From: Lachnospiraceae bacterium
GTDB taxonomy: Bacteria > Bacillota > Clostridia > Lachnospirales > Lachnospiraceae
NCBI GenBank assembly: GCA_017617005.1
Contig: JAFZWW010000028.1
Span: 1 to 56,425, forward strand
Length of the DNA: 56,425 nucleotides
Direction of reading: 5' to 3'
Position 1 is the first letter of the stretch. Each line of letters starts with the position of its first letter. The position numbers and the translations under genes were made by a program. The notes under the pieces were generated by a model. That model was given only the letters and a program-made list of their open reading frames with translations, was not told the DNA's origin and did no database searches. Positions 33,638 to 36,366 of the stretch are shown here, piece by piece.

Positions 33638-34576
33638 ATGTCAGCAGAAAACATTGATTACGGCAAGATCTATAAACCTTCGAACGAAGTATATGTGATC
33701 AAAAAGGACGGTTCGCGTGAAGCGTTCAATGTACAGAAGGTCATCAATGCTGTCAGTAAGAGTGCATACAGGGCTCTTACCGAGTTTTCCGATGAAGATA
33801 ACAGGAAGATCTGTACTCTTATAATTTCAAAAGTCGATGAACTGGGTGAAAATGAGATACCCATTCCCAGGATGCACAACATCGTAGAGGAGGTTCTTGA
33901 ACAGGTCAAGCCCATAGTCGCAAAAAGTTACCGTGATTACCGCAATTACAAGCAGGACTTTGTGCGCATGCTGGATGACGTTTACAAGAAGTCTCAGTCC
34001 ATCATGTATATCGGTGACAAGGAAAATTCCAATACCGATTCCGCACTTGTTTCCACCAAGAGGAGCCTTATCTTTAACCAGCTCAATAAAGAGCTTTACA
34101 TGAAGTTTTTCCTTACCACCGAAGAGATCCAGGCTTGCCGTGACGGTTATATCTACATTCATGATATGTCGTCAAGAAGAGATACCATGAACTGCTGTCT
34201 CTTTGACATCGCATCCGTTTTAAAAGACGGATTTGAAATGGGAAATATCTGGTATAACCAGCCCAAATCCCTCGATACAGCTTTCGATGTAATGGGAGAT
34301 ATCGTTCTTTCCGCAGCTAGCCAGCAGTACGGAGGATTTACCATTCCTTCTGTCGAATATACACTTGAACCCTACGCAAAACTTTCTTATGACAAGAAAT
34401 ACAAAAAGTACATAGATCTCGGCGTTGATGAGAAGAAGGCCGCCGATGCCGCACTTGCCGATGTCGAAAGAGAATTCGAACAGGGCTTTCAGGGCTGGGA
34501 ATATAAATTCAATACCGTTGCTTCCAGCCGCGGAGATTATCCTTTCATTACCGTGACCGCAGGAACCGGAACCTAG
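33638..34576 (+). CDS. nrdD: Anaerobic ribonucleoside-triphosphate reductase NrdD, N-terminal part, ended by in-frame TAG
   Basis: First 312 codons of class III ribonucleotide reductase, which makes dNTPs without oxygen. An ATP-cone allosteric domain (about 18-105: YVIKKDGSREAFNVQKV) and the start of the catalytic barrel are present, with the radical-pathway Cys region RRDTMNCCLFD (about 180-190). Translation ends at TAG 34574-34576 in the middle of a conserved stretch (TVTAGTGT, stop, DFQKMATRALL). The remaining two-thirds of the enzyme continues in the same frame. The Shine-Dalgarno CCGGAG is good. Alone this fragment cannot be an active reductase. Confidence 0.9.
   Translation: MSAENIDYGKIYKPSNEVYVIKKDGSREAFNVQKVINAVSKSAYRALTEFSDEDNRKICTLIISKVDELGENEIPIPRMHNIVEEVLEQVKPIVAKSYRDYRNYKQDFVRMLDDVYKKSQSIMYIGDKENSNTDSALVSTKRSLIFNQLNKELYMKFFLTTEEIQACRDGYIYIHDMSSRRDTMNCCLFDIASVLKDGFEMGNIWYNQPKSLDTAFDVMGDIVLSAASQQYGGFTIPSVEYTLEPYAKLSYDKKYKKYIDLGVDEKKAADAALADVEREFEQGFQGWEYKFNTVASSRGDYPFITVTAGTGT
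34574..34576 (+). other. nrdD: In-frame amber codon (TAG) inside nrdD
   Basis: Codon 313 of the nrdD frame is TAG. The frame before (from 33638) and after it (to 35806) is the same and both sides encode conserved NrdD sequence without a gap or shift. The frame is otherwise free of stops. TAG ends plsY, cdd and rodA in this window, so it is a normal terminator elsewhere. Confidence 0.97.
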
Positions 34577-34588
34577 GACTTTCAGAAG

Positions 34589-35806
34589 ATGGCTACCAGG
34601 GCGCTTCTCAAGGTGCATATGGAAGGACAGGGCAAGAAGGGCAGAAAAAAGCCCGTTCTCTTCCCCAAGATCGTATTCCTTTACGATGAAAAGCTTCACG
34701 GTGAAGGCGGAGAACTCGAGGATATCTTTGAACTCGCCGTAAGATGTTCATCCAAGACTATGTATCCCGATTATCTTTCCCTTACCGGAGAAGGATATGT
34801 TCCTTCGATCTACAAAAAGTACGGCAAGATCATTTCACCCATGGGCTGCAGGGCATTCCTTTCACCATGGTTTGAAAGAGGCGGCATAGAACCTGCCGAT
34901 GAGAATGATACACCGGTATATGTCGGACGATTCAATATCGGTGTCGTATCGCTCCATCTTCCGATGATCCTTGCCCGAAGCAGAAAAGAGAACAGGGATT
35001 TCTACGTGATACTCGATTATTACCTTGAACTGATAAGAAACCTTCATTTGAGAACATATTCCTATCTCGGTGAAATGAAGGCTTCCACGAATCCCCTTGC
35101 ATACTGTATGGGCGGCTTCCGTGGCGGAAATCTCCAGCTTTCTGACAAGATAAAGCCACTGCTTGATTCCGCCACATCTTCATTCGGTATCACGGCCCTC
35201 AATGAACTCCAGAGGCTTTATAACGGCAAATCACTCACTGAGGATGCGGAGTTTTCGCTTGAGGTCATGGGACATATCAATGAAAAGATCGCTCAGTTCA
35301 AGAAAGAAGACCACAGATTATATGCGATCTACGGAACACCTGCCGAGAATCTCTGCGGACTTCAGGTAAAGCAGTTCAGAAAGAAATTCGGTATCATCGA
35401 AGGAGTATCGGACCGTGAATATGTTTCGAATTCCTTCCACTGTCATGTTACCGAGAATATCACTCCGATCGAAAAGCAGGATTATGAGAAGAGATTCTGG
35501 GATCTTTTCAACGGCGGCAAGATCCAGTATGTAAAGTATCCCGTTGATTATAATCTCGATGCGATCAAGACTCTTGTCAGACGCGCAATGAAGATGGGCT
35601 TCTATGAGGGTGTTAACCTTTCACTTTCTTATTGTGATGACTGCGGACATGAAGAACTTTCAATGGATGTCTGTCCCGTATGCGGAAGCCGTAACCTGAC
35701 CAAGATCGACCGTATGAACGGTTACCTTTCATATTCAAGGACACACGGTGACACAAGACTCAATGATGCCAAGATGATCGAGATTGCTGAAAGAAGATCA
35801 ATGTAA
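34589..35806 (+). CDS. nrdD: Anaerobic ribonucleoside-triphosphate reductase NrdD, C-terminal part
   Basis: The 405 residues from the first ATG after the amber codon, in frame with the N-terminal part; together they give about 722 residues, the expected NrdD size. Seen here are KKPVLFPKIVFLYDE, SPMGCRAFLSP, the catalytic loop region GTPAENLCGLQVKQF, the zinc site CDDC and CPVC, and the glycyl-radical site RMNGYLSYSR with the tail NDAKMIEIAERRSM. All catalytic features are intact, so the gene does not look decayed. The ATG has no Shine-Dalgarno, which argues against a naturally split gene. It overlaps nrdG by 1 nt. Confidence 0.9.
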   Translation: MATRALLKVHMEGQGKKGRKKPVLFPKIVFLYDEKLHGEGGELEDIFELAVRCSSKTMYPDYLSLTGEGYVPSIYKKYGKIISPMGCRAFLSPWFERGGIEPADENDTPVYVGRFNIGVVSLHLPMILARSRKENRDFYVILDYYLELIRNLHLRTYSYLGEMKASTNPLAYCMGGFRGGNLQLSDKIKPLLDSATSSFGITALNELQRLYNGKSLTEDAEFSLEVMGHINEKIAQFKKEDHRLYAIYGTPAENLCGLQVKQFRKKFGIIEGVSDREYVSNSFHCHVTENITPIEKQDYEKRFWDLFNGGKIQYVKYPVDYNLDAIKTLVRRAMKMGFYEGVNLSLSYCDDCGHEELSMDVCPVCGSRNLTKIDRMNGYLSYSRTHGDTRLNDAKMIEIAERRSM

Positions 35807-36366
35807 TGAGATATCATGATATTACAAAGGATGACATGAATAACGGTGACGGACTCAGGGTTGTTCTCTGGGTGAGCGGCTGCAGTCATATGTGCAGCGG
35901 CTGTCAGAATCCACAGACCTGGGAACCCGACAGCGGAATATATTTTGACGATGAAGCAAAAAAGGAACTGTTCGATCTGCTTTCCCGCGACTATATTTCC
36001 GGTCTTACCCTCAGCGGAGGAGATCCTTTATATCCCGGCAACATTGCCGATGTCGAACATCTCCTCAAAACCTTCAAGGATACATTTCCCGATAAGACGG
36101 TATGGCTCTATACCGGTGATCTCTGGGAGGATATCAAAGGTCTTCCTTTGATGAGTTATGTTGATGTCGTTGTTGACGGACCCTTCGACAAGAATCTGAA
36201 GGATGTGACACTCTGCTGGAAAGGAAGCTCTAATCAGAGAGTTATCGATGTGAAGGAATCACTCGAATCAGGGGAAGTCAGGATCCATTGTCCGGATCAT
36301 TACACCGTGCTCGATCCCGATTCCGTTCACGGAAGTTCCAGATCAGGTGTGCCCTGTATGTATTGA
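35806..36366 (+). CDS. nrdG: Anaerobic ribonucleotide reductase activating protein NrdG
   Basis: Radical-SAM activase that generates the glycyl radical on NrdD. It has 186 residues. The cluster motif is CSHMCSGC (CX3CX2C, at about 26-33); LSGGDPL, the SAM-binding glycine motif, lies near residue 67. The start overlaps the last base of nrdD, the usual coupling. The C-terminal part is normal in length. An intact activase indicates that the pathway is under selection. Confidence 0.96.
   Translation: MRYHDITKDDMNNGDGLRVVLWVSGCSHMCSGCQNPQTWEPDSGIYFDDEAKKELFDLLSRDYISGLTLSGGDPLYPGNIADVEHLLKTFKDTFPDKTVWLYTGDLWEDIKGLPLMSYVDVVVDGPFDKNLKDVTLCWKGSSNQRVIDVKESLESGEVRIHCPDHYTVLDPDSVHGSSRSGVPCMY

Follow-up and report, generated by a model that had tools for sequence, protein, structure and literature searches.

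The in-frame TAG in the nrdD gene of this Lachnospiraceae bacterium is very probably a private and very recent premature stop: a nonsense variant carried by the sampled strain or population, or else an error in the assembly consensus. The sequence alone favours these two together without separating them, and in either case the TAG is ordinary. The first-pass annotation of this DNA had left four options side by side: sequence error, recent nonsense mutation, amber suppression or programmed recoding. Our evidence jointly favours the first two, and nothing firm was found for the last two. The annotation had named, as observations that would reduce the TAG to an error or a private mutation, a sense codon in all relatives and a second functional RNR in the strain; the compared relatives do have a sense codon (0 stops in 109 loci, the best 80 of 554 named ones among them), and the genome does carry a second RNR gene, a class III nrdD on contig C25.

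The window, that is, the whole stretch of 56,425 nucleotides that was analysed, is contig C87 of an assembly of 149 contigs and 2.44 Mb (86.8% complete, 4.46% contamination), which we infer to be derived from a metagenome. The features of the window around the stop are the following.

33638..34573, + strand: 5' part of nrdD, 312 codons, with the ATP cone and the start of the class III ribonucleotide reductase (RNR) catalytic domain (PF03477, PF13597, TIGR02487)
34574..34576, + strand: in-frame TAG, codon 313; Gly, Ser, Glu, Thr or Asp in compared homologues (sequence, homologue alignment)
34575..34591, + strand: possible reinitiation site, AGGA at 34575-34578, a 10-nt spacer and ATG 34589
34577..35806, + strand: 3' part of nrdD, 409 codons and TAA, with the PMGCR region, zinc Cys pairs and RMNGYLSY (TIGR02487)
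35806..36366, + strand: nrdG, activating enzyme (TIGR02491, 177.5 bits, cut-off 126.1)

Sequence and translation confirm what had been claimed of the frame, which is open from ATG 33638 to TAA 35806 except for the TAG at codon 313. The ATP cone reported earlier is present in the 5' part (PF03477, 3.6e-16 in the profile search), and nrdG is indeed intact, its match lying above the cut-off and its ATG beginning on the final base of the nrdD TAA. TIGR02487 is matched on both sides of the TAG at adjoining profile positions, 1-189 before it (157.7 bits) and 193-581 after it (399.1 bits), with a cut-off of 326.35, and the Pfam NRDD domain PF13597 is likewise matched at positions 1-167 and 179-560. 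With its ATP cone, an NRDD domain on both sides of the TAG and an adjacent nrdG, the gene resembles class III NrdD (TIGR02487 / PF13597) and differs from it by one in-frame TAG. The encoded protein is ~98% identical to that of the relative G027, a stretch of which shares ~82-87% DNA identity with the window. When the intact relative L003 is aligned with 9d3x, a class III enzyme of solved structure, residue 313 directly follows a GLGT segment and precedes the GCR segment. The continuous frame through the radical cysteine and the glycyl-radical region is broken here at codon 313. The 3' part of the gene holds the PMGCR region, the zinc Cys pairs and the glycyl-radical region RMNGYLSY. Both PMGCR and the glycyl-radical region at the C terminus would be absent from a product of 312 residues. 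If the TAG is real, translation would end after these 312 residues, and the truncated copy would probably be inactive, with neither the radical-cysteine region nor the glycyl-radical region in its product.

The privacy of the stop rests on the comparison with relatives. We compared 109 homologous loci, composed of 29 best matches from genus relatives and the best 80 of 554 named loci; several genomes are included twice, and together with the window the set holds 103 distinct sequences. Codon 313 encodes Gly in 71 of these 109 loci (the best 80 of the 554 included), Ser in 28, Glu in eight, Thr in one and Asp in one, and neither this codon nor any other codon of the aligned nrdD is a stop in any of them. 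The near relatives L003, L004, L005 and L020 all have Ser at this position. The best named match among the best 80 of 554 belongs to Lachnospiraceae bacterium AC2028 (L118). A scan of GTDB r220 for the TAG motif at the site of codon 313 gave no matches; the scan required the exact motif, so it misses homologues with other neighboring residues, and the window's own record is possibly absent from it. The TAG therefore looks private. Its absence in the compared relatives means that a broken copy or a reading error is most likely, not special decoding, and conserved recoding was rejected, the TAG being absent from all 109 loci, the best 80 of 554 among them, and from the exact-motif scan of GTDB r220. 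In the literature that we searched no report of an in-frame stop in nrdD was found. Parts of one published study (PMC8629427) describe stop codon inferences that were traced to misalignment or contamination.

The gene had been described as not looking decayed, and this description holds. In relation to the nearest relative, L003, dS is 0.825 before the TAG and 0.961 after it, with dN of only 0.004 and 0.0115, respectively, and these substitution rates indicate that purifying selection is acting on both sides of the TAG. When 20 genes of the window, located between 30564 and 55844, were compared against G017 and G027, nrdD had five private amino-acid differences, the stop included (four are missense), against 100 private synonymous codons, a ratio tied for third lowest among the 20 genes. 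Decay of the gene is thus unsupported, with very low dN/dS either side of the TAG and few private missense changes, which means that either the stop arose very recently or the consensus of this assembly (149 contigs, 86.8% complete) is in error. Three residues besides the stop, V457, S514 and G545 (window 35006-35272), are absent from all 109 homologues, which include the best 80 of 554 named ones; all three lie 3' of the TAG, and at position 514 every member of this set of 109 has Ala. The count of unique residues is ordinary overall, since four or more are seen in 30 of the 103 distinct sequences, counting the window. That those of nrdD all follow the TAG, while L003, L004 and L020 have none, could be a faint hint of relaxed selection.

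It had also been argued that an anaerobe should need this gene. This is weakened by contig C25, which carries another class III nrdD (L002:1417-3342), open for 641 codons up to where the contig ends; the 591 residues scanned score above the curated cut-offs for both PRK09263 and TIGR02487. Over the 3' part this second copy is 36% identical to the TAG-bearing one, and a second nrdG is located on contig C137 (L198). Among the other genus genomes this second nrdD type was found in 29 of 30, partial in some, and was not seen in G030. The second nrdD with the second nrdG would supply dNTPs, and loss of the TAG-bearing copy could thus be tolerated. On the other side, a search for the class I/II large subunit (PF02867) had no match in any of the 31 genus genomes, this one included, and class III may be the only RNR on which the genus depends. 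The TAG-bearing type is also not obviously dispensable, because it is kept in all 30 other genus genomes searched; the weaker cases are G024, with 63% identity, and G025 and G030, with the gene in two pieces, while in G004 the match covers only 37 residues of a 351-codon open frame.

The nrdD gene could alternatively work as a split gene, in which translation stops at the UAG and restarts at ATG 34589, and chains of 312 and 405 residues form a working enzyme. The first-pass annotation regarded a natural split as unlikely, partly because the first ATG after the stop seemed to have no Shine-Dalgarno sequence. The latter point needs correction, as a weak AGGA, which overlaps the TAG and is formed partly by it, precedes the in-frame ATG 34589 by 10 nt. 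This AGGA means little, since in part of the sampled genome 218 of 1683 internal ATGs of long ORFs (13%) have a Shine-Dalgarno signal of equal strength, and reinitiation here is not clearly signalled above chance. Matches to nrdD on some viral contigs (L338-L341, L346-L347) span ~3.0-3.2 kb in comparison with ~2.1 kb; being longer than the gene, they may mean that these genes are interrupted, possibly by inserted elements, and to that extent they speak for splitting. Phage class I NrdA is reportedly split, with chains that assemble into a working enzyme. The likeness lies in the cut of an RNR large chain within its catalytic domain; here, however, there is no inserted element, the reinitiation signal is weak and nrdD forms one unbroken match in all 109 compared loci (including the best 80 of 554). 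The location of the cut within the catalytic domain also argues against two separate chains. The original judgement of the split gene is therefore sustained by the unbroken loci and the common motif, and we consider this explanation very improbable.

The preferred reading, a private premature stop, has a second example in the same assembly. We scanned 1.56 Mb, ~64% of the assembly, for stops with coding in the same frame on both sides; in ORFs of at least 220 codons the scan would detect 8398 of 10190 random interior positions (82%), those near gene ends being missed. It returned 125 candidates (88 TAA, 25 TGA and 12 TAG), of which two were judged by eye to be true interruptions, both of them TAG, in nrdD and pncB; the rest were judged to be gene junctions or shadow frames, with L087:7052, L081:2912 and L297:4061 among the less clear. 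In this ~64% of the assembly no TAA or TGA was judged by eye to be a true interruption. In a comparison of the window's ORFs with G027 and G017, nrdD was flagged with both, along with 13 further stop-containing frames (nine with G027 and four with G017) which, by position and identity, are taken for 5' extensions or for frames that overlap or lie antisense. The second interruption is

C27:2640-2642 (L062): in-frame TAG in pncB, nicotinate phosphoribosyltransferase (basis: interrupted-gene scan)

The gene is the only nicotinate phosphoribosyltransferase match found in the assembly, and its two parts match NF003704 at 5-279 and 281-394, either side of its one TAG. The 3' part was matched in 28 of 31 genus genomes, its own included, and in the 26 other genomes in which the site is readable it encodes Gln (14) or His (12) and never a stop, so by this comparison the pncB TAG is likewise private. 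Both TAGs directly precede GAC, a codon with a usage of 2.4%. A bias towards TAG was considered, as both interruptions are TAG, and rejected: given the codon usage here, TAG is the expected outcome of 44-51% of nonsense changes at a single base, and two TAGs of two (chance ~0.2-0.26) are therefore not striking. In sum, the two stops resemble an ordinary nonsense allele or consensus error in being private and in lying, in the case of nrdD, within a gene that is otherwise intact, with pncB as a second example, and we found no difference from this known kind.

Two TAGs in genes that otherwise look intact are also what would be seen if the strain had a suppressor tRNA that inserts an amino acid at UAG and so rescues nrdD and pncB. 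The GAC that follows both stops is compatible with suppression or readthrough, as is the variability of codon 313 among the 109 homologues (best 80 of 554 included). So is the rarity of TAG as a terminal stop, noted at first for the window and holding beyond it: of the 1167 ORFs with 150 codons or more in the sampled genome, 71 end in TAG (6.1%, the two premature TAGs counted). The share is however similar in stretches of two relatives (5 of 91 ORFs), and the median extension to the next stop is longer, not shorter, after TAG (17 codons) than after TAA (14) or TGA (9), so that genes ended by TAG show no early back-up stops. The search for an amber-decoding tRNA, which had been proposed together with one for the pyl system, turned up none in this incomplete assembly. 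The Rfam tRNA search of the assembly yielded 37 matches, 35 above the cut-off, and none has a CTA anticodon; because the assembly is only 86.8% complete, a UAG-decoding tRNA could possibly be missing from it. Anticodons were read by ARAGORN for 34 tRNAs and by eye for one at a contig end (GCC), while the weak matches are one read by eye as CAC and a fragment. A separate count made with the interrupted-gene scan saw only part of the ARAGORN-read set, 21 tRNAs, again with no CTA. At L069:80-170, beside two tRNA-Ser genes on contig C114, there is a fragment similar to the 3' half of tRNA-Ser; it has no CTA. The serine tRNAs found have the anticodons GGA, TGA, CGA and GCT, their presence arguing against suppression, and the gene for release factor 1 (RF1) is intact. 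In addition, homologues have mostly Gly or Ser at the nrdD site and Gln or His at the pncB site, so no single suppressor would restore both genes. Amber suppression is accordingly quite unlikely.

Programmed recoding, or reassignment of the stop codon in the lineage, would be in accordance with the in-frame position of the TAG and with the second in-frame TAG in pncB. No PylS above the curated cut-off was found in the assembly, the best match to the profile reaching 21.1 bits where 178.15 are required. Amber suppression and pyrrolysine decoding thus share with our case an in-frame UAG, and differ from it in that here no decoding tRNA was found, PylS is below the cut-off, RF1 is intact and the UAG is unconserved. 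The RNA fold around the nrdD TAG is not unusual (z-score +1.03, with 168 of 200 shuffles folding at least as well), and structure at the stop was set aside as nothing beyond chance in these 200 shuffles. UAG is neither conserved at the site (absent from all 109 compared loci, with the best 80 of 554 among them) nor frequent in frame, only two in-frame TAGs being found in the 1.56 Mb that make up ~64% of the assembly. We regard recoding or reassignment as extremely improbable.

From these results a private and very recent premature stop in nrdD, a nonsense variant or a consensus error, is the reading that we prefer. It carries a caution: when a lone in-frame stop is met in an intact conserved gene of a fragmented assembly, relatives and the genome-wide count of such stops can be checked before recoding is proposed. 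It is unlikely that we are dealing with a natural amber-suppressing strain, its tRNA in the unassembled part of the genome, at an early step to reassignment, or else with a two-chain nrdD made via ATG 34589. Should readthrough of the TAG nevertheless be shown, nrdD and pncB would serve as two ready-made reporter genes in a natural suppressor strain.
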